64,000 nt of DNA, taken from positions 9,238,001 through 9,302,000 of the forward strand of contig JAHRBC010000001.1 in the NCBI GenBank assembly GCA_022702545.1. Reading direction: 5' to 3'. The position numbers and the translations under genes were made by a program. The DNA is from Phycomyces nitens (lineage: Eukaryota > Mucoromycota > Mucoromycetes > Mucorales > Phycomycetaceae). How positions within the stretch are numbered: the first letter of the stretch is position 1; each line of letters starts with the position of its first letter. The notes below the pieces were generated by a model that worked only from the letters and a program-made list of their open reading frames with translations, did not search any database and had not been told where the DNA came from. Positions 4,372 to 64,000 of the stretch are shown here, in pieces.

Positions 4372-6021
4372 AAGTATCATGAATTGAATTGGCTTATGAT
4401 CAGTACTATCCTGCACTTTTCTACAGTTTACTATACATCGTTCATTGCCTTTTATTTGTCAATGAGTAGTGAAGCAAGAGAAAATCACATGGCTTATTAG
4501 AAGAAAAAGTCGCACACAATTATAACAGTATCCAAGTAGTTGAATACAAAAGACATTAACAAAATAACATGATGGAAGAGGATAATGAACAAAAAAAGAC
4601 TAAGACAATATAACACAAGGTTAATAGCTAATACTACTTATTCCACGTTCTCTTGTTTTAATTGATAGACCTAAATACTCGAGTCTTTAGTCTTCGGAAT
4701 AATAAAAAAAAAGGTTATAAAAAAGTCAATTGCCATTTGGCCTCTGTCTTCAACTGCTGCCACGATAATCGTCCTGCTTGGTTTCACGCTTGTCATCTCG
4801 GCGCTTACCTACAGTTACCATCTCCTTGCCAATTACCAACATCCTATACCTATTGGAAAAAATGTTTTGCTTTTGACGGCTCATCCCGATGATGAATGCA
4901 TGTTCTTTGGACCAACTATTCGAGGTCTAGGTAGACAACACAAAACACGCGTTCATGTATTGTGTTTATCAACAGGTTTGTTTTTAATTACAACAAATAA
5001 ACTTTGTAGATGAGTAGACTGACAAGAGATTGATTAGGAAATGCTGATGGGTTGGAGCAAATTCGAAAGCGGGAGCTGGTAAAGAGTAGTCAGATGCTAG
5101 GCATCCAACCATCGCATGTCAAAGCCCTCGAGGGTCCGTACGTGTTTGCTTTATACATATATATTTTTAAAAAAAATTCCGAGGGTTTAAAATGATTCTT
5201 GTTCCTTTTTATAGTGAACTTCAAGATGGAATGAAGTCTGTATGGCCTGCAGATAAAATTGCTCAACTAGTAAAAGATTATGTTTCCAAACAAAAGATTG
5301 GCACCGTGAGTTGGCTAGAAATAAATTGGATTTGGTAAAGTTTGTTTCTCAATTGGGTCAATCAATAGATCATTACGTTTGATGGACATGGTATATCTGG
5401 ACACCCTAATCATATAGTAGCATATGAAGGTGCAAAGTAAATGGTCGAAAAGATTATCGAGACTAATATGGCTATAGGCGATATGTGGAAACCCAAAAAG
5501 AACCAGCCAAGCTGTATACTCTGGACTCAATTCCTCTCGTACGAAAGTATATTGGAATCGGTGACTTGATTACTAGCAGCTTTGAGCAGGTTATGGCATT
5601 GATCAAGAAGGAAGAAAAGGGCACTGTCTTGATTGTATCGTCGCCAGGTGCCTACCTGGTCACCCACGAGACAATGCACCAACACAAAAGTCAATTGGTC
5701 TGGTTTAGGTGGCTCTATGTGACATTTTCTCGTTACATCTATGTAAACGAATTGTCTCTGGTCAATTTGACTGAGCAGCAGTAATGCAATGGCATGGACT
5801 TTATATCCATTTGTATTTTTTATGTACAGTAGAATAGTGGCTTTGTATCAGCATTTAGCTCCAATAAAACAACAAAGAAATATAAGTGGAGAGAGAGAGA
5901 GAGAAGGACATGTAATTGTAAAAGGTTATATGAGAGTGACATCAAGAAAGCCAGCCCTAGAAGCTTATTTGACTATTGCTATGGATAAAAGAAACATTCT
6001 CAACTGTCCATAATATCCCTT
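4372..6021 (+). repeat. 1.65-kb segmental duplication, copy 1 (GPI12 block)
   Basis: Sequence from AAGTATCATGAATTG onward matches 7980-9640 in the same orientation, with scattered substitutions and small indels. The block includes the whole GPI12 gene with its promoter and 3' flank. Similarity ends just after the TATCCCTTGTTT shared by both copies. Confidence 0.9.
4762..5784 (+). pseudogene. GPI12/PIG-L copy 1, start codon lost (ATG to ACG)
   Basis: This copy matches the intact GPI12 gene at 8372-9405 exon by exon, including the HPDDEC zinc-binding motif and the C-terminal QLVWFRWLYVTFSRY stretch. Its initiator codon is ACG at 4762-4764, and the next in-frame ATG follows the HPDDE motif, so normal initiation would remove the N-terminal membrane anchor and the catalytic motif. 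The intron 4 donor has also lost four bases (GTAAGTAAAT to GTAAAT), which weakens it. Other changes are conservative and all exons stay open. Either this is a very young pseudogene or translation starts at the near-cognate ACG. Confidence 0.8.
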
Positions 6022-6249
6022 GTTTTGCATTCATACAAACGCTGGGATAAATGTCGCAACAAGGAACTCATATAATGGTCATAATGGATGGGGATGTGTC
6101 AATAGGTGTAGATAGGCTGCACTGAGTTTTTTGCATATTTATTGAGAAATCCTTTGGATTCTAGTCTTTGAAGAGGGAAAATGGGGATGAGGGGATATTG
6201 TAACTCTGCGGGTAGAATGCTAATTTGGAGGCGAAAACACCAGTTCTCT

Positions 6250-6798
6250 TCAGAGGGGAGACACGATAGGGACGGATCGTTGCGAGGGGGAGCATATCAC
6301 GTGTATAGTTGCTTTTTGTTTAGATGATGTGGCGGTATCGCAGTCGCAGGGCTGACATGCTTTGAACCAAAAGAGGGGGGCATGCTTTGAACCAAGAGAG
6401 GCGTGCTTGCCCTTGTACAAATCCATTTGGTCGTTGATGATTGTGTTGATAGAGCACAGTTGATCCTTCAGGGCAAGAAGAGCGTCCATGGTTTCACCAA
6501 AACGGCGAAGGGACGCTGTTGACCTTGGATATTGCAGGCGCTGGCGTGACAAGGCGACATAAAGACCATCTTGGTCAAGGTGGACCAATGACACCAAATC
6601 TTGGAAGCCGTTCAATTGGACTACTATCTCCATCATGGCATCGGCAGTACGTTGCTCAACCGATGTGTCCAGCAGCTGGTCCAAGATATCCTTCCCTTCT
6701 CGCAGAAGTTTGGCATTGTCATTGATGATGTTGTCATTGATGATGATGTCATAGATGATGTTGTCATTGGTACTGCCATCAAGTGCTGCCTTGGGCAT
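6250..6798 (-). pseudogene. 5'-truncated inverted copy of the neighbouring uncharacterised gene
   Basis: The 182-aa frame is clearly homologous to the C-terminal half of the plus-strand gene at 6851-7846; shared stretches include KLLREGK, DGLYVAL and ALLALKDQLCSI. Homology begins around KAALDGS, so the N-terminal half is missing. An expansion of 15-nt units encoding the five-residue motif NDNII sits near its start, with only a single KDN-type element in the full copy. The two copies face each other head to head, about 50 bp apart. The C-terminus also diverges. I treat it as a truncated gene remnant, though it remains open. Confidence 0.65.
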
Positions 6799-6850: not shown

Positions 6851-7846
6851 ATGTTCAAGGAGTCACTTACATTCACTCGACCTCCATATCTCCATCAAAC
6901 TTTGAGCCAACTCATCCGTTTCTACGAGCGGTCCAAAGAGGCTGCAGCAAAACTTTACCTGATGAAAGCAATGGAGGAGAACGACGTTGACGAGGACTCA
7001 ACGATTGGCTTGCAACTCCTCTGGCGGTTAATCACTTCGTTGACAATCCATCGTACAATGTTGGACCCCCTTCGAAAGATGGGACCAACAGAGTGCGATG
7101 TGGCATTCAAACTGTGGCTGCCACTGTTCGACCATTTGTTTGCTGGTACGCCTATCTCAACAAGAATTGGCGAAACCAGCAACACATTCACGGGCAACAA
7201 CAAGCAAGCAATGTACACGAGCGGAAACAACCATGCCATTGGTTTTAAAGTTGACATCCGTTTTGTGTACAACTGTCACCACACGTCAAAGCTGATCGAC
7301 GTTGCCGCGGCGGAGGCAGCCATTGATGGCAGCTCAAACGACAAGATCATCAAAGACAATGGGAAACTTTTGCGAGAAGGCAAAGGCATCCTCGACAAGC
7401 TGCTGGACATGTCAGTCGAGCAACATGCTGCCGATGCAATGATAGGGATAGTCATCCAATTGGATGGCTTCCAAGGTTTGGTGTCATCGGTCCACATTGA
7501 CCAAGATGGTCTTTATGTCGCCTTGCCCCGTCACCGCCTCCAATATCCCAGGTCGACAGCGTCCATTCACCGTTTTGGTGAAACTCTGGACGCTCTTCTT
7601 GCCCTAAAAGACCAACTGTGCTCCATCAGCACCATAATCAATGACCAGATGGATCTATACCAAGACAGGCGCGTTTCTCTTGGTTCGAAACATGCCCACC
7701 CTGCGACCACAATACCTGCACACAATCTGGGCAAAAAGCAACGAACCACTTGGTATTCTCCCCCTCGTAACGATCCGTCCCTGTCATATTTCCCCTCGGA
7801 AGAGGACTTGTGTCTTCGCCTCAAATCTAGCACTCTACCCCCATAA
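6851..7846 (+). CDS. Uncharacterised protein of a Mucoromycotina-type expanded family
   Basis: A single-exon frame of 331 aa. The N-terminal half contains AFKLWLPLFDHLF followed by a GFKVDIRFVYN segment. The C-terminal half has GKLLREGKGILDKLLD, then IQLDGFQGLV and DGLYVALPRHRLQYP, then an ALLALKDQLCSI helix. From memory this order (WxPLF, GFKVDxRF, KLxREGKDxLD, GLYVA) recurs in a large set of hypothetical proteins in Mucor, Rhizopus and Phycomyces. No enzymatic motif, signal peptide or membrane span is visible. The function is unknown. It lies between two GPI12 copies and opposite a truncated relative of itself, so it belongs to a locally rearranged region. Confidence 0.65.
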   Translation: MFKESLTFTRPPYLHQTLSQLIRFYERSKEAAAKLYLMKAMEENDVDEDSTIGLQLLWRLITSLTIHRTMLDPLRKMGPTECDVAFKLWLPLFDHLFAGTPISTRIGETSNTFTGNNKQAMYTSGNNHAIGFKVDIRFVYNCHHTSKLIDVAAAEAAIDGSSNDKIIKDNGKLLREGKGILDKLLDMSVEQHAADAMIGIVIQLDGFQGLVSSVHIDQDGLYVALPRHRLQYPRSTASIHRFGETLDALLALKDQLCSISTIINDQMDLYQDRRVSLGSKHAHPATTIPAHNLGKKQRTTWYSPPRNDPSLSYFPSEEDLCLRLKSSTLPP

Positions 7847-7979
7847 TTCCAATAACCCCCTCATCCTCATTTTCCCTAATAAAATAAACAGATAAAAGAA
7901 TGTTTGGACCTCTGCAAATAATTTTTTAAGGAAAGAAATGCTTATGTGGTGGAGAGCACCAAAAGATGAAGAGCACCTC

Positions 7980-9640
7980 AAGTATCATGAATTGAATTGA
8001 CTTATGGTTAGTACTATATTACACTTCTCTACAGTGTACTATACACCGTTCATTGCCTTTTATTCGTCGATGAATAGTGAAGCAAGAGAAAATCACATGG
8101 CTTATTAGAAGAAAAAGTCGCACATAATTATAACAGTTTCCAAGTAATTGAATACAAAAGACATTGACAAAATGACATGATGGAAGAGGATGATGGACAA
8201 AAAGAAGACCAAGGCAATATAACACAAGGTTAATAGCCAATACCACTCATGCCACGTTCTCTTGTTTCAATTGATAGACCTAAACACTCGAGTCTTGAGT
8301 TTTCAGACTAAAAAAAATAAAGGGTTATAAAAAAGCCAATTGTCATTTAGCCTCCGTCTTCAACTGCTGCCATGATAATCGTCCTGCTTAGTTTTACGCT
8401 TGTCATCTCGGCGCTTACCTACAGTTATCATGTCCTTGCCAATTACCAACATCCTATACCAATTGGAGGAAATGTTCTGCTTTTGACGGCTCATCCCGAT
8501 GATGAATGCATGTTCTTTGGGCCAACTATTCGAGGTCTGGGTAGACAACACAAGACACGCGTTCATGTATTGTGTTTATCAACAGGTTTGTTTTTAATTA
8601 CAACAAATAAACTTTGTAGATGAGTAGACTGACAAGAGATTGATTAGGAAATGCTGATGGGTTGGGGCAAATTCGAAAGCGGGAGCTGGTAAAGAGTAGT
8701 CAGATGCTAGGCATCCAACCATCGCATGTCAAAGCCCTCGAGGATCCGTACGTGTTTGCTTTATATATATATATATATATATATTTAAAAAAATTCCGAG
8801 GGTTTCAACTGATTCTTGTTCCTTTTTATAGTGAACTTAAAGATGGAATGAAGTCTGTATGGCCTGCAGATAAAATTGCTCAACTAGTAAAAGATTATGT
8901 TTCCAAACAAAAGATTGGCACCGTGAGTTGGCTAGAAATCAATTGGATTTGGTAAAGTTTGTTTCTCAATTGGGTCAATCAATAGATCATTACGTTTGAT
9001 GGACATGGTATATCTGGACACCCTAATCATATAGCAGCATATGAAGGTGCAAAGTAAGTAAATGGTCGAAAAGATTATCAAGACTAATATGGCTATAGGC
9101 GATATGTGGAAACCCAAAAAGAACCAGCCAAGCTGTATACTCTGGACTCAATTCCTCTCGTACGAAAGTATATTGGAATCGGTGACTTGATTACTAGCAG
9201 CTTTGAGCAGGTTATGGCATTGATCAAGAAGGAAGAAAAGGGCACTGTCTTGATTGTATCGTCGCCAGGTGCCTACCTGGTCACCCACAAGGCAATGCGC
9301 CAACACAAAAGTCAATTGGTCTGGTTTAGGTGGCTCTATGTGACATTTTCCCGTTACATGTATGTAAACGAATTGTCTCTGGTCAATTTAACCGAGCAGC
9401 AGTAATGCAATGGCATGGACTTTATATCCATTTGTATTTTTCATGTACAGTAGAATAGTGGCTTTGTATCAGCATTTAGCTCCAATAAAACAACAAAGAA
9501 ATATAAGTGGAGAGAGAGAGGGAAATGTAATTGTAAAAGGTTAGATGAGAGTGACATCAAGAAAGCCAGCCCTAGGAGCTTATTCGACTATTGCTATAGA
9601 TAAAAGAAACATTCTCAACTGGCCATAATATCCCTTGTTT
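7980..9640 (+). repeat. 1.65-kb segmental duplication, copy 2 (GPI12 block)
   Basis: Direct repeat of 4372-6021, about 3.6 kb apart. Visible differences include a longer TA run in intron 2 (8763-8783), an intact intron 4 donor and an intact ATG. The duplicated unit includes at least 390 bp of 5' flank, so both copies would have started with the same promoter. Confidence 0.9.
8372..9405 (+). CDS. GPI12: N-acetylglucosaminyl-phosphatidylinositol de-N-acetylase (PIG-L/Gpi12)
   Basis: This enzyme catalyses the second step of GPI-anchor synthesis, removing acetate from GlcNAc-PI on the cytosolic face of the ER. Five exons (8372-8585, 8648-8747, 8832-8922, 8986-9053, 9099-9405) join in frame to 259 aa, close to the usual family length. 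An N-terminal hydrophobic helix anchors it in the membrane. Family signatures are the zinc-binding LLTAHPDDECMFF, the LSTGNADGLG turn, the FDGHGISGHPNH motif carrying the second metal ligand, and the C-terminal HKSQLVWFRWLYVTFSRY block. All introns are GT-AG and 46-84 nt. It is the intact partner of the broken copy at 4762. Confidence 0.92.
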
Positions 9641-39968: not shown

Positions 39969-40036
39969 CTGACATTTATGATGGCTGAATAGGCTCAGAA
40001 AAGATATTAAAGAGGACAATATTTCATTGAATAAAA
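39969..40036 (-). repeat. Fragment of the 623-bp tRNA-headed repeat
   Basis: GACATTTATGATGGCTGAAT onward through AGAGGACAATATTTCATTGA matches 63,538-63,605 (right arm of the terminal inverted repeat) with about five differences over 68 bp. It begins only about 40 bp from the right end of the Tc1-like element. This shows that the repeat is dispersed and not private to the inverted pair. The remainder of 39,927-40,212 is AT-rich and empty. Confidence 0.8.
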
Positions 40037-40212
40037 ATCATATTTGGGAAAAGACTAAATTACTTTTGCTAGAGCCCTGTAATATGATCAACAAAAGTTA
40101 ATCACTAGGCTATCTGCAGTAACCATAAGACACAGAGAAAATACTGATAGTAAAGAATGATAATTATCACCAAGTCTTTATGGCTATGACGATCTTCTTG
40201 GGATATAATACA

Positions 40213-55084: not shown

Positions 55085-56245
55085 TTAATCATTGCAGGCT
55101 ACACCACCCTTTCCGAGTCCTACTGCCTTTTCTACGACTTCTCTCATCAAATCAACCAGCGTAGAGCATGTCAGGATCAATAGGGCTTCAAACAGCTCGG
55201 ATCGATCTACAGCTGCTACTATCTTCCGATCGACTAGCAGGCGGCCTAGCTGGATAAAGTACCCCATACCATGGCTATCAAACTCTGCAACCCGACGCCA
55301 TCCCCGCCCTTCATCGTCTTCATTTCCCTGGTAAAGCGGTCTGATGTCACACACCATGTCGTGAGAAACAAGGCTAGGTCGCTTCCAACGTATGCGATTA
55401 CCCTCATACCGGGTTTCATATACGAACAGAAAGTTGGATTTGGTCTTGCTCTCTAGACCATCGCTCTTGAGACTAGCCTCGTTTCCTTCGCTGTAGTCTC
55501 CCCATTCGAGTGTAATCTCCTTTTGATTCGCCCGTCTCCGGGCCTCAACCACCTTTGTAGCCTCACTTGGGGCATTCTTATCGACAGCACGATAAAGCAC
55601 ATTCTCAAATCCCCATGCATAAGAATATTGCTGGATCTTGAGGTATACGAGTCGTTTGGTCAAATGGTTATAGATATCATGGAGGTGTGGCCGGACCAGA
55701 GAGTGTTTTCGCATATCAAATACCAGCACTTCTGTCTTTGGACGCTTTTTGAGGCTTAGGCGGCTTCCTTGCGGTAGACTAGTGGTGCTGGATGAGGAAT
55801 TGCTCGTGGTTGAGCTTGCGAGACTGACTGTACTTTTGTTGTAGAGTGGATCGTTAGGGAGGATAATAGATCCAGACCTTTTGGGACCTCCTTCATATTG
55901 CTGTTTTTCTGCATAGGGTGGGGGAGGGGTATTTGGTATTTGATCCCTGGTTTCATTCAATTCCATAATAATGTTGGGGCGATTGGTGATTGTGATGACT
56001 GGAGGTGAGATTGTCACGGAATCTTCAAGCTGATTTGGGATTCCAGTTGGCTGGACACTGGGTTCTTCATAGGCATTTGGTTTTTCAAAGATTGGGGAAT
56101 CCAAGGCATTAGGTTTTTGTGGAGTGTTTTTGGTATTTTGCATGATACAAGAAAGATAAAGGTGGAGAAAGAAAGGTGAGTACGAATAATTTGGTGCGAC
56201 CAAGGTTGGAATCTCAGCAATCAGAGGGGTTAGGGTGAAGGGCAT
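55085..56245 (-). CDS. Unrecognised cytosolic protein with PPxY motif, possible tubby-like C-terminal fold
   Basis: A single-exon frame of 386 aa; an alternative start at 56143 (MQNTKNTPQ) avoids a hydrophobic leader and is perhaps more natural. The first 150 residues are disordered and Pro/Ser/Thr-rich with NTPPPPYAEK, a PPxY motif that could bind the WW domain of a Rsp5-type ubiquitin ligase. The C-terminal 200 residues are folded: KTEVLVFDMRKHSLVRPHLH, YAWGFENVLYRAVDKNA, FLFVYETRYEGNRIRWKRPS, VAEFDSHGMGYFIQLGRLLV, ELFEALLILTCSTLVDLMRE. That pattern of short strands followed by one long hydrophobic helix resembles tubby/LURP-like barrels, but this is only an impression. Confidence 0.65.
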   Translation of the reverse strand: MPFTLTPLIAEIPTLVAPNYSYSPFFLHLYLSCIMQNTKNTPQKPNALDSPIFEKPNAYEEPSVQPTGIPNQLEDSVTISPPVITITNRPNIIMELNETRDQIPNTPPPPYAEKQQYEGGPKRSGSIILPNDPLYNKSTVSLASSTTSNSSSSTTSLPQGSRLSLKKRPKTEVLVFDMRKHSLVRPHLHDIYNHLTKRLVYLKIQQYSYAWGFENVLYRAVDKNAPSEATKVVEARRRANQKEITLEWGDYSEGNEASLKSDGLESKTKSNFLFVYETRYEGNRIRWKRPSLVSHDMVCDIRPLYQGNEDDEGRGWRRVAEFDSHGMGYFIQLGRLLVDRKIVAAVDRSELFEALLILTCSTLVDLMREVVEKAVGLGKGGVACND

Positions 56246-59200: not shown

Positions 59201-60859
59201 ATGTGAATTATCTTTGATCAAAATATAGTAAGTAGATATGTATTGTTCGAATATAATAAATAAGAGGGAGAAAACTTGATAGATAAATATCATAAGGTGT
59301 TGAGCATCGGCTCAAAGGACCCTCCAGGATATTTGGTAAATGAAAAATGTTTGCATACATACTATTAGAATTTCCGTAATACTATATTTTCATAAACCAA
59401 AAGCTTCTTTTTGCTTTAGTAAATTTTGATACTTTGTTTTCATAGTAAAAAAAAAACGAAATCAGAGAGGGTAATATATATATATAAATTGTCAAATTTG
59501 TGCCTTTAGCCAGCCTACGGAATTGTAGCTGCTATATCTAGTCTATTTGATTAAGCCCAAGAGCATGTCTTGAAAAGTGTCAGCATTTCTTGTTGTCACG
59601 ACTGCAACCCTTTACCTTGTATTTTCCGTCAGATCCTATACAGCGCAGCTAGAGATAAAAGTATCCTTTCCAACTCACTTCTTTTGAGCAGATTTTGACA
59701 TGTGCGGGGTCACTAATAAATCGAGAAATTGTAAGCTTGGGAATAAAGTACAAATGAAAGACATGTCTTTACAGTGATTTTATTATTGATACATACAAGA
59801 AATCAATTTAGCAACCTGTAATTATAAGTTATATCATGTATAGTTTATATAATAGAAGCAATGCATTTATTAAATATGAGATAGATCTACCTTTATATAC
59901 TTTTTAAAAATAGTGATATATATAATACACGAAAACAACAACAACAACAACAATTCTTATCCCATACTTATCCACTCTTTGGTCAGAGTCTCTCTCAATT
60001 GCTTTAGTATTGTAGGTTAGATTGACCTTGGCTCATATTACAGTCCAATCTATTTCAGAGGGTTTCAATTCAATTCAAATGAAGACTATTTGATAGGCAG
60101 TATAGAACATCCCAGGTTCATCCTTACATCTTTTTAATATTACAGCTTTATGTGGCGTGAAAAAGGAATATATATATATGAGCAAATATTGCAGGGAATT
60201 GACAAACTCACTGATTTTATAGCCAGTCTGTATATTAAATGAATAGTTTGATGTCCTTTGGGGTATCAAATGCACTTTTCCATCATCAACTCGACACCAG
60301 CTTAATTACACTAGCAAAAAATTGTGAAAAGAGGATCTACTGCACCTATTTTTGTTTAACATTGTTCTGGTCTAGTTTATTTTCTTGTCGTTGACATAGA
60401 AGATACCTTGCTATACTATTTATTTATTTTTAATAATGACTTTTTATCGTTGGTCTTTGGTTCGAGTACACCGCGTTAATTAAACCGATATTGATTTCAA
60501 GAATTCAAATAGTTTTTATAGAGAAAACAAGAGGGACGGATGAATGCAAGTTCATTGTTTCCTTTCTTCTTGAACATTGGCTAATGCGAGAAATACTTGG
60601 TATTTTTTTGCTGCTGGCAGAATATTGATTCAGTAGATTATGTAAAAAAAAAAGGGTAATCTCAATGGGAATCTACTGCATTAGCTTCAAAGACTTTTTT
60701 TTGATATATTTAAAATGCACTAGAGGAAGCAGCAGAAAAACAAAAATAAAGTGGAATGGAATGGAATGGAATGGATTAGCATGAGACTTGGTGATTAGCT
60801 ACAGATGTAAAGATTCTATATTATTATTTTGAGTGTAGAAACCCATCAGACACTATAAA
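56246..60859. other. 4.6-kb AT-rich gene desert
   Basis: The first ~250 bp are the promoter of the PPxY gene. Beyond that I found only short AT-driven frames, an (AAC)n tract at 59,936-59,951, small TA runs and a GGAAT array (listed separately). No splice-consistent coding segments, tRNA or transposon ends could be recognised. Confidence 0.55.
60752..60775. repeat. (GGAAT)n short array
   Basis: Four full GGAAT units and a partial one in a row, within an AT-rich stretch about 85 bp before the left arm of the large inverted repeat. Confidence 0.9.
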
Positions 60860-61482
60860 GAGTATTTTACCATAAAAGGCAAGCAAAGAGTTGCACGTAT
60901 TTCTTAATTTTCTATACACCGGTAATACTGGTGTATGACTCGGTTGGTTGAGGCGTTGGATTTTCAATGTTCAGGTCGGGGGTTCGATCCTCGGGCTTGG
61001 AAATTGGGGAAAAGACGCTTTCGCCGACTGGGTTATATACTGGGGCAGTACCTGGGACTTTGGCCAAGTCTCAGCTTGGACTTCGGTGGCCGCGGGGATT
61101 CCAATCTACCAAGCTTAGCTTGGTAGAGTACTGTTGCATTTTTTTTTTATTTATTTTTTGTCGTTTTGGATCTGTATTGTTCTTTCAATGCTATAATACA
61201 CCCAATATTGACCAAACCCACTGGGAATCGTAAACGAGGATAGAATGATAGATTCTTTTTCATTCAATGAAATATTGTCCTCTTTTATATCTTTTCTAAA
61301 CCTACTCAGCCATCATAAATGTCTGACACTTTGGTGGCCTCAAAGATTCCAGTCTACTAAGAAGGAGAGCTTAGTAGACTATTACTATTTTTTAATTTTT
61401 TTTAATTTTTTTTTAATTTTTCAAATTTATTTATTAGGGGGTTTCATTGATTTTTATTTTCCAAGTTTTATTTATTGGCAAT
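60860..61482 (+). repeat. Left arm of a 623-bp inverted repeat
   Basis: From GAGTATTTTACCATAAAAGG to TTGGCAAT the sequence equals the reverse complement of 63378-64000; the only difference I saw is one T/C near the inner end. Peptides translated from both arms are the same over the whole arm. The arm carries tRNA-like A and B boxes near its outer end, two short hairpins each preceded by a related ggtggcc...gattcca sequence and each followed by T-rich runs, and a simple T/A tract toward the inner end. The outer boundary may lie further left only if the right arm continues past the window end; flanking sequence to the left cannot be compared. Confidence 0.95.
60914..61148 (+). ncRNA. Candidate Pol III transcript with tRNA-like head (SINE-like)
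   Basis: An A-box-like TATGACTCGGTTGGTTGAGG (60,935-60,954) and a perfect B box GGTTCGATCC (60,981-60,990) are spaced as in a tRNA. The anticodon arm does not pair well, so this is not a working tRNA. About 115 bases further lies a perfect 10-bp hairpin with one-base loop (61,106-61,126), then ten consecutive T (61,139-61,148), which would end Pol III transcription. The same unit occurs inverted in the right arm (about 63,712-63,946). A tRNA-derived SINE is the simplest reading. Confidence 0.5.
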
Positions 61483-62159
61483 TAATATTTTGAAAATATG
61501 TTATTGAACCCCCCCCCCTCTTTTTCTTTAATCGGTTCTAGATATTTTATCCAAACAATATTTGTATGGTACTCATGGTGCCAAATAGCTGTTTTGAAAA
61601 GACTAGTGGCACCTTTTTTGCAAAACCAATCGGTGGTCTTTATAAACCCAATTCATAGTAAGGTATTTAGATTTGTTAGTATTTCATGGGAAATGGGAAT
61701 ACTATAAGAGCTGTTTATCGACAAAAGAGTACTATGTGTGGTATACCTACCGCTGCCGAGTGACGAAAGGGTCTATAACCGATGTCTGGTTACTCTTTAC
61801 TATTGACCATATATTAAAAATGAGGGTGATATCTGGGCTGTTTGATAGCCATAACATTATTGACCCACCTAGTGCCTTCTTTCATTTCACAAGTGTGGTA
61901 TACACACCACAGTTGAGTGAAATACAGACTCCACAGCCGATCACCGGTTACTACTTGCTAATGACCCTGGCAAGTTAACATCTCAGGAACAGTTACACAC
62001 CGGGTACACATACAACTCACACTGCCACAGTGATAACCAGCAATTATATGACGGGAACTCTAATTACAAGGGAATTTGAATAATAGTATATAAGCAATCA
62101 TAATATTCTTTCTTCAATAAATAACACTCTCACAGTATTCTTATTTCCCTTAAAAGATA
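61483..62159. other. Spacer of the inverted repeat, left part
   Basis: AT-rich with a C-run (61,509-61,518). Short open frames at 61498-61707 and 61673-61978 have no recognisable domain. Nothing else is seen. Confidence 0.5.
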
Positions 62160-62640
62160 CTAACAAACCATATGCCACAACAAGATTTGACTTTTGCATT
62201 GGGCATTTTCCACTTGATAAACAAGCTCTCGGTTGTTTTCTTCATTCAATTTCCCGAAAAATGGAAAGGCTTCTTCCCGGCAAGTTCATATACGCTTGCT
62301 GTATAAGCATACCCTTGATCATCTTAAAGGACCTATGGCTCCTGCCCGTATACATCACTAGAGCATAATGGAGCCTCCACTAAGCTGCATTCTTGGCTTT
62401 AAATAATCTGCTTCATAAACTCGGGGCTAAACACACGTGTTTCTACCTTTCGGAAAAAGCATAACTCTCGACTAATCGCTCCGGATGACACACTCCCATC
62501 TTTGATTAGCTTTATTGGAGTGATGAAAAATCTTAATCGCTTCATCTAATGTGCTTTTAATAGCCGTGGCTCGCATACAAGTTGCTGTTTTGTTGAGACA
62601 TGCCGTGATTCGAATGAGGAAAGCGCCTTTAAAAAAATTA
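62160..62640 (-). mobile_element. Tc1/mariner transposase remnant between the inverted arms
   Basis: Read on the minus strand with interruptions it gives KSTLDEAIKIFHHSNKANQR, WECVIRSD, a stop, then SRVMLFPKGR, and after more stops MQLSGGSIML and AGAIGPLR, ending near LVYQVENAQC. This is the central part of a Tc1-type transposase (the SDESRF and GGGSIMVWG region), strongly decayed. It resembles the 30-kb copy more than the 38.7-kb copy (shared HHS...K.NQR). Confidence 0.75.
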
Positions 62641-62763
62641 TGGTGCTGACTCTTTATTTTGTGAGGTTTAAATCAATTGTCCTTAATCTTGGTATGGGTC
62701 TGTACGAATATTAAATCAAAGAAAGAAATATTTAGAGAATAAAACTATCTAAAAGTCTCTGTG

Positions 62764-62840
62764 AGATTCGAACTCACGGTATTCCAACCAAGGCCAGAAA
62801 ACTGCCTGTCAAGTCAACCAAAGTCAACTATAGACCGAGA
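62764..62840 (-). other. tRNA-like sequence (degenerate)
   Basis: On the minus strand CCGTGAGTTCGAATCTCAC forms a perfect T arm with an intact B box, and a GTCTC/GAGAC pairing can stand in for an acceptor stem. The D arm and anticodon arm are poor, so it is not a convincing functional tRNA. It may be a tRNA pseudogene or SINE head. Confidence 0.4.
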
Positions 62841-63039
62841 CAGGATGTTCAAAAGAACAACAAAATTCAAAAGACTAGGGCTATTCCTCACTGTTTTAAG
62901 CAACAAAGGCTATATTCAGTTACGAGACCCCGCCTCTTTCGTTTCATCTAAACGCGATTTTACATTCTCTGGATTAACATTATCAAAGTACTCTTGGGTA
63001 TAACTACTAGAGTAGTATAACCAAAAGCGATGAATATAG

Positions 63040-63115
63040 TCTTGTAGCCCAGAGGACTACGGGCGAGAATTGAACATTGTTTCCAGCGCAAGATAATGGC
63101 CTAAAGACGTTCAGC
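63040..63115 (-). other. Second tRNA-like sequence (degenerate)
   Basis: On the minus strand AGGATTTTGGCTGAACGTCT, TTAGGCC and TGTTCAATTCTCGCCC recall A and B boxes and the outer AGGA/TCCT can pair. The B box is degenerate and the anticodon arm uncertain. It lies in the spacer of the inverted repeat close to the other tRNA-like sequence. Confidence 0.3.
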
Positions 63116-63377
63116 CAAAATCCTGACAAGCACATCTTCACAGCACCTGGTTCCATTAACCGACCACGAGAGATTGGAGGCTTGAATAAAGTATGACTTT
63201 ATACACTGTTACGATATTGATTGCCGGACAGCAAGAGATTGGCCAGATATCACAACGGCCATGTACCACACTCAGGGCTGAAATCCCTACTCAGGCTTGG
63301 TAAAAGTACGGCCCAACTTGAGAAGACAGTTATACCCCAGACACAGAAGTGCCTCTCGCACAGGCTGAGTTGGTTTG

Positions 63378-64000
63378 ATTGCCAATAGATAAAACTTGGA
63401 AAATAAAAATCAATGAAACCCCCTAATAAATAAATTTGAAAAATTAAAAAAAAATTAAAAAAAATTAAAAAATAGTAATAGTCTACTAAGCTCTCCTTCT
63501 TAGTAGACTGGAATCTTTGAGGCCACCAAAGTGTCAGACATTTATGATGGCTGAGTAGGTTTAGAAAAGATATAAAAGAGGACAATATTTCATTGAATGA
63601 AAAAGAATCTATCATTCTATCCTCGTTTACGATTCCCAGTGGGTTTGGTCAATATTGGGTGTATTATAGCATTGAAAGAACAATACAGATCCAAAACGAC
63701 AAAAAATAAATAAAAAAAAAATGCAACAGTACTCTACCAAGCTAAGCTTGGTAGATTGGAATCCCCGCGGCCACCGAAGTCCAAGCTGAGACTTGGCCAA
63801 AGTCCCAGGTACTGCCCCAGTATATAACCCAGTCGGCGAAAGCGTCTTTTCCCCAATTTCCAAGCCCGAGGATCGAACCCCCGACCTGAACATTGAAAAT
63901 CCAACGCCTCAACCAACCGAGTCATACACCAGTATTACCGGTGTATAGAAAATTAAGAAATACGTGCAACTCTTTGCTTGCCTTTTATGGTAAAATACTC
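63378..64000 (-). repeat. Right arm of the 623-bp inverted repeat, reaching the window end
   Basis: Reverse complement of 60860-61482 up to the last base of the window, so the arm may continue beyond it. It has the same tRNA-like head, hairpins and T/A tract. The 1.9-kb spacer between the arms holds a Tc1 remnant and two degenerate tRNA-like sequences. Confidence 0.95.

Follow-up and report, generated by a model that had tools for sequence, protein, structure and literature searches.

A multi-copy family of palindromes in Phycomyces that look like foldback-type elements, with a candidate structured RNA gene in each arm

The DNA analysed here is a stretch of 64,000 nucleotides of Phycomyces nitens (contig JAHRBC010000001.1, positions 9,238,001 to 9,302,000; hereafter the window), which ends inside a large palindrome. 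Within the window, positions 60860-61485 align in inverted orientation with 63375-64000 over 626 nt with 2 mismatches, across a spacer of 1,889 nt. An earlier note on this DNA had described a near-identical inverted repeat of 623 bp with a right arm running off the window. The repeat, its near-identity and the run-off are all borne out, but not the length, which had come out at about 623 bp because the window edge sets the outer limit. When DNA past 64,000 was added (stretch L009), self-comparison gave arms of 1,779 and 1,778 bp, 99.3% identical across 1,781 aligned columns. Each arm holds a candidate RNA gene of about 229 nt with signals of the RNA polymerase III (Pol III) type. The features of the arms are as follows.

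59707..61485, + strand: left arm, full length 1,779 bp (self-comparison of L009)
63375..64000, - strand: right arm, portion within the window; extends to about 65152 (self-comparison)
60912..61140, + strand: left copy of the RNA gene candidate, 229 nt (model R1, 258 bits; also alignments A1 and A2 and covariation)
63720..63948, - strand: RNA gene candidate, right copy (model R1, 258 bits)
60945..60955, + strand: A-box-like stretch (tRNA consensus TRGYNNARNNG)
60982..60990, + strand: B box GTTCGATCC, located at the long hairpin's tip (sequence reading, arm scan)
61042..61136, + strand: 3' domain, three hairpins on a closing stem (fold; 85 of 95 columns invariant across 14 loci)
61139..61148, + strand: ten consecutive T, possibly a Pol III terminator (sequence reading, arm scan)
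61323..61378, + strand: second, degenerate partial copy of the 3' domain (model R1 positions 165-216, 17.3 bits)

The full-length arms differ at 13 single positions, 11 of which fall in homopolymers or a simple repeat: four in A runs, one in a T run and six in a GGAAT-type repeat (60754-60770). The other two lie at the inner edge (61472 and 61483), and there is no difference at all between 60771 and 61471. Such near-identity would suit a false palindrome made by the assembly. A fold-back artefact is nevertheless unlikely because the outer flanks of the left and right arms are unrelated; the 1.9-kb spacer and the recurrence of this layout at many loci, each with arms of its own, also speak against it, so that we give this explanation next to no weight. 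Nor are the arms restricted to this place, the outcome that the earlier note had named, together with a false palindrome, as fatal to its reading: an arm query of 641 bp found at least 42 matches in the genome (best 40 of 200 candidates scored).

The genome searched was that of Phycomyces (49.0 Mb in 11 contigs, designated by C-numbers; loci are named contig:position and fetched stretches carry L-numbers). A protein encoded at 55085-56245 of the window has 83% identity to one of Phycomyces blakesleeanus, whereas none of the remaining named fungi listed, among them P. nitens with a more distant protein, exceeds 50%. An RNA-core pattern of 35 nt, with 34 fixed letters and up to 3 mismatches allowed, matched 67 times, 54 of them exactly, and its reversed control gave 0 matches. 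RNA-core neighbours less than 12 kb apart form 24 convergent, 4 tandem and 2 divergent pairs, and a further 12 copies lack any neighbour. In 18 of 21 merged loci the main inverted repeat spans 0.96-8.5 kb with 92-99.9% identity; in the remaining three it measures 581 bp at 81% (C10:365500), 184 bp at 72% (C6:1661500) or is absent (C5:1928000). Long inverted repeats around a shorter centre, as in foldback elements, were thus found at many places in the genome. Collections of viral, bacterial and archaeal contigs contained no match to the RNA core, which says little about fungi.

Signals of the Pol III type were scored in 38 arms from 20 fetched stretches, partial arms excluded. A run of six or more T occurs no farther than 35 nt from the 3' core in all 38, and a B box (GWTCRANNC) in 36, the two arms that lack it belonging to one locus. 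The consensus of the tRNA A box is TRGYNNARNNG, and this motif occurs no more than 60 nt before the B box in 27 of the 38 arms, against 2.1 expected from letter shuffles. The looser A-box form TGRNNNNNNGR printed in PMC4267658 was uninformative (17 of 38 arms against 17.4 expected). The earlier claim of A and B boxes, a hairpin and a T-run in each arm accordingly holds for the B box, hairpins and T-run, and for the A box in those 27 arms. No Rfam family was reached at threshold with the RNA as query. The Rfam tRNA model yielded partial scores of 16.0 and 20.6 bits (against a cut-off of 29), and ARAGORN called tRNAs in three of the 20 fetched stretches (L022, L024 and L028). A tRNA gene was rejected on the grounds of the sub-threshold scores and of the fold, which in this region is mostly one long hairpin.

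The position of the RNA can also be predicted. At nine places outside the 67 matches, where it was placed from outer-arm homology alone, model R1 matched in seven (L065-L071, 109-146 bits) and found nothing in two (L072 and L073); it matched all nine known copies run alongside. In one of the predicted copies (L065 130-356, C6:451350-451850), an inner part of the 3' domain seems to be flipped with respect to related copies, as by template switching at short inverted repeats. Elsewhere in the window, a 67-bp inverted match (39971-40037, 92.5% identity) to the arm's second unit (61257-61323) stands without any other arm sequence.

Transfer RNA-derived short interspersed elements (SINEs) carry A and B boxes and a T-run, and the earlier note had suggested that each arm could be such a retroposon, in which case the palindrome would be one SINE inserted twice in inverse orientation. 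The B box, T-run, A-box matches and partial tRNA-model scores would all agree with this. RNA copies without a convergent partner speak against it. We read seven of the 12 neighbourless copies (L027, L057, L059, L060, L061, L062 and L064) and C5:1904575 (L063), whose sole neighbour is divergent, and in eight of eight arm DNA adjoins the RNA, so that arm homology outreaches the RNA itself. A free-standing unit was not seen in any of these, the predicted fold of the region is for the most part a single long hairpin, not a cloverleaf, and the SINE was rejected as highly improbable.

The left copy is predicted to fold at -110.3 kcal/mol (z-score -9.0; none of 200 shuffles folds as well) into, in order, a short hairpin, a long hairpin (about 42 pairs) that carries the B box at its tip, and the 3' domain, which by itself has a z-score of -3.6 and comprises three hairpins on a closing stem. 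The long hairpin is formed by 17 of the 20 sequences of alignment A1 when these are folded singly, and by five of six further sequences. The most diverged copy (L042) retains the overall plan with altered hairpins. Covariation was examined in A1 and in A2 (36 sequences, aligned without regard to structure), with the fold taken from the first sequence; in the counts that follow, related rows are counted many times. A1 has 24 cells changed on both sides of a pair, against 10.4±2.8 after shuffling, and none of 500 shuffles reaches 24. In A2, 21 of 89 pairs are changed on both sides (15.6±1.5 shuffled) and 120 cells are two-sided (48±5.9 shuffled), neither value being reached in 500 shuffles. Pairing in A2 amounts to 89.6%, compared to 32-49% with the partners slid, although these percentages favour the tested fold because the structure derives from one of the aligned sequences; the slid versions give 3-31 two-sided cells. 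The predicted RNA fold, including the hairpin of about 42 bp, is thus supported by covariation. G-U pairs are frequent in the helices, which points to RNA, and a DNA cruciform or a replication origin was rejected on this ground.

Conservation was measured in 14 of the 21 loci, seven having been left out as non-homologous downstream, partial or near-duplicate. Invariant columns number 85 of 95 in the 3' domain and 216 of 470 (46%) in the flanking core, which shows special constraint on the 3' domain; the corresponding figures are 35 of 76 for the tRNA-like part, 5 of 29 for the linker and 5 of 750 for the outer arm. The strong constraint on the 3' domain and the covariation might also be expected of a host RNA gene family that sits in palindromes and is kept intact by arm-to-arm conversion, in the manner of sex-chromosome palindromes, and PMC7023750 and PMC8981503 do describe palindromes maintained by conversion. 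Against such a host gene, all copies read sit in arm DNA of one repeat family with common ends, and damaged copies exist, with a shortened RNA in L060 and L061. We regard this explanation as improbable.

The earlier note had also proposed that the arms might be kept alike by gene conversion, and comparison between loci agrees with it. Of 16 loci that have a single convergent pair, 11 show an arm divergence of no more than 1.1%. In 72 of 83 pairs of loci with homologous spacers, both within-locus values are lower than both same-side between-locus values; these pairs are mutually dependent, and the between-locus values (0.9-45%, mostly above 10%) take in poorly aligning outer parts. When shorter stretches are compared, the partner arm is the nearest relative for 34 of 46 arms, ties counted. 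Some arms depart from this pattern, among them those of nested loci and of two chimeras. In one chimera, C5:1152612 differs from the C5:1414 arms by 3.4% and its partner from C4/C10 arms by 3.9%; in the other, C10:367667 differs by 1.9% from a C4 arm, with its partner 23.5% away. Mirrored insertions are seen as well. The palindrome at C5:1409000 (arms of 3.7 kb, 99.2%) has DDE_3 matches placed symmetrically in both arms, the left one with a Pfam E-value of 4e-17, and that at C9:849600 contains a 286-bp insertion, also known from the spacer of the window, in both arms. The two arms of one repeat appear to be held nearly identical through copying of arm onto arm, a pattern that fits gene conversion.

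Exchange seems to take place between loci as well. C5:6686 and C5:6930 have spacers that are 98.6% alike and differ by about 1% over the inner 3.7 kb, yet beyond it divergence jumps to 36-58% on both sides, though the arms are identical within each locus. In this pair the jump occurs some 300 bp upstream of the RNA, and in C1:7442/C1:7729 some 700 bp upstream; between the window locus and C1:2160 the change is more gradual and falls within about 140 bp of the RNA start. Inner cassettes therefore look swapped between loci, and since their boundaries vary from one pair of loci to another, ectopic conversion accounts for them more readily than does the insertion of a unit whose ends are fixed. 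The proposal of the earlier note that the arms are the ends of a composite element that moves the spacer is consequently right in part: a larger element bounded by inverted arms fits, and spacers are common to several loci, but they travel inside an inner cassette of varying extent, for which ectopic conversion is a better account than composite transposition. In a bolder version, the palindromes would be a selfish element that spreads chiefly by double-strand break repair, with homing of the inner cassette: a break at the mirror-image centre would be mended from sister palindromes, whereby the cassette would enter other copies, and the payload would be a novel class of Pol III hairpin RNA on which the element depends, for instance in silencing competitors or in steering its own breakage or repair. 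We consider this rather unlikely.

The arms resemble the very long terminal inverted repeats (TIRs) of an old foldback-type element. Arm ends have TACAGGGTTACTA... in common, the common end sequence being TACAGGGTTACTAnAAnAATATTGAG, and an end pattern of 34 letters with up to 3 mismatches matched 22 times in the genome (control 0). Of 25 end matches in fetched DNA 16 start with TA, a dinucleotide that the scan pattern itself contained. Tc1-type transposases are common in the Phycomyces genome. On this evidence the family could be an ordinary non-autonomous long-TIR DNA transposon moved in trans, perhaps of Tc1/mariner type with a TA target, in which the RNA would be a passenger and arm identity would be a product of transposition and gap repair. 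TA may be the target, but of the nine elements whose two ends are seen and whose flanks differ, four have TA at either end (C6:433015, C9:3156815, C5:6686 and C1:1070) and five do not (C9:3299, C5:1911, C5:2032, C4:7172 and the window element, which has TA at one end only). No empty site of the whole element was found, and no family transposase among the 40 longest open frames of the merged loci; Pfam transposase domains occur only in two stretches that resemble nested Tc1-type insertions. Moreover, cassette boundaries vary, and the RNA covaries, which a passenger would not need. Such a transposon appears doubtful, though it is the strongest of the competing explanations.

The spacer contains the following features.

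61486..63374: spacer, a mosaic of old pieces common to other loci (genome comparison)
61894..62179: 286-bp insertion, absent from four related loci
62861..63374, - strand: decayed 3' end of large-subunit (LSU) ribosomal RNA (RF02543, E-value 4.9e-7, 36.7 bits)

Empty sites of the 286-bp insertion are found at C1:2160, C9:3298, C1:1070 and C7:3741, where the flanks overlap by 5 bp. The LSU rRNA match, which lies below the RF02543 gathering score of 50, was overlooked by a first Rfam scan of 58 kb and picked up by a narrower one. Together with weak Tc1-like traces, these pieces bear out the earlier description of the spacer as 1.9 kb of old, decayed DNA. The badly mutated Tc1 remnant reported there is weakly supported: the best relevant tblastn E-value is 0.014 and Pfam detects no transposase family in two spacer frames, so that, with TA at one end only, the element was not assigned to Tc1/mariner. 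The module at 62580-63374, which includes the rRNA fragment, recurs in dozens of copies at 91-97%, many on C6 and C7 (best 40 of 577 candidates), and has a B-box-like GAGTTCGAATCTC near 62765 on the minus strand, so that it may be a second repeated unit.

Other repeats were noted in passing. The window has a direct repeat of 1.7 kb at 94% (4372-6025 and 7980-9640) and an inverted repeat at 78% (6174-6738 and 7337-7877). At nine places picked by eye among the listed DDE_3 matches, e.g. C5:5441410 / C5:5445638, transposase matches of equal or almost equal score lie in inverted orientation to each other, each pair spanning 1.5-18 kb, and a palindrome at C5:5440300 has arms at least 1.9 kb long that are 99% identical. 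Because equal-scoring transposase matches form inverted pairs, near-identical palindromes may be common in the Phycomyces genome. Thirteen tRNA matches of 73 nt all score 65.1 bits, and 11 of them lie within 38 kb of a contig end of known position (e.g. C4:4394, C5:22648, C7:5287, C9:13199, C1:9938416, C4:8928401, C5:8031694, C6:6554068 and C10:2199162), which suggests a subtelomeric tRNA copy.

Taken as a whole, what the sequences display is a family, convergent RNA pairs, concerted evolution of arms, shared cassettes with variable boundaries and a covarying fold. The reading that we favour, with a probability of roughly 65%, is an old multi-copy family of foldback-type palindromes in which each arm holds an RNA gene candidate of about 229 nt and conversion homogenises the arms. 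The RNA would be transcribed by Pol III from the A and B boxes to the T-run. The centre of the palindrome would be prone to break; repair from the other arm would leave the arms identical, and repair from another palindrome would spread the inner cassette. The RNA may be retained for its fold, the hairpin of about 42 bp being most likely a double-stranded RNA substrate for Dicer-like processing or a scaffold for protein binding in the service of the element.

A number of observations weigh against this reading. In their own best folds, three of the 20 A1 sequences (L012, one L020 copy and L025) lack the long hairpin, as does L029 among the six further sequences, and a C6 subfamily of eight sequences is without the last hairpin. 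By the invariant-column measure the tRNA-like part is no more invariant than the flanks. The nine pairs with two-sided change in A1 are reached by 50 of 500 shuffles, and the measure of further pair types shows no excess over shuffles in either alignment (482 of 500 for A2). Five of the 16 loci have arms that diverge by 6.3, 13.6, 15.4, 24.6 and 38.3%. For three of these the value is at least partly an artefact of extraction, which at a fixed length overran the common arms: a shorter stretch gives 3.1% at C5:1595500, 5.4% at C9:1258000 and 0.1% at C6:1938200. The arms of C10:365500 and C5:1152000 are truly unlike, at 81 and 78% identity. The pair C5:1911/C5:2032 lacks any contrast between inner and outer parts (spacers 97.2% alike, arms about 1% different), and the missing family transposase belongs here too.

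If the favoured reading is true, the identity of the arms despite exchange of the centres becomes a question that can be tested in one fungus, as does whether a DNA element persists by carrying a hairpin RNA gene; so many arm pairs in a single genome are also material for measuring gene conversion. Among the listed results of searches in open papers we found no account of foldback-like elements whose arms hold a conserved structured RNA, and a covarying, apparently Pol III-type RNA in both arms of such an element seems not to have been described in them before. Its A and B boxes and T-run are shared with tRNA-derived SINEs, from which it differs in not having been seen as a free unit and in its long hairpin without a cloverleaf. 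The pre-miRNA (precursor microRNA) genes of bovine leukemia virus, as presented in PMC4267658, are transcribed by Pol III, with the A box in the hairpin and the B box beyond the terminator. The compact type 2 Pol III signals, the A box in a hairpin and the T-run end are alike, whereas the putative Phycomyces gene has its B box at the hairpin tip, with a second, 3' domain following the hairpin. In Galileo of Drosophila, the two inverted repeats of one copy are 98-100% identical and copies differ from each other, according to the portions of PMC3573991 and PMC4079207 at hand. Very long inverted repeats, near-identity within a copy and variable structure are thus common to Galileo, or foldback-type long-TIR transposons, and the Phycomyces palindromes; unlike Galileo, the latter have no P-type transposase that we could see, and their arms hold a covarying RNA, of which those portions make no mention for Galileo. 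Finally, the arms of sex-chromosome palindromes are kept near-identical by arm-to-arm gene conversion, as set out in PMC7023750 and PMC8981503, and near-identical arms apparently kept by conversion are what the two systems share; sex-chromosome palindromes are much larger and hold protein genes, whereas those of Phycomyces form a dispersed repeat family that appears to swap its centres.

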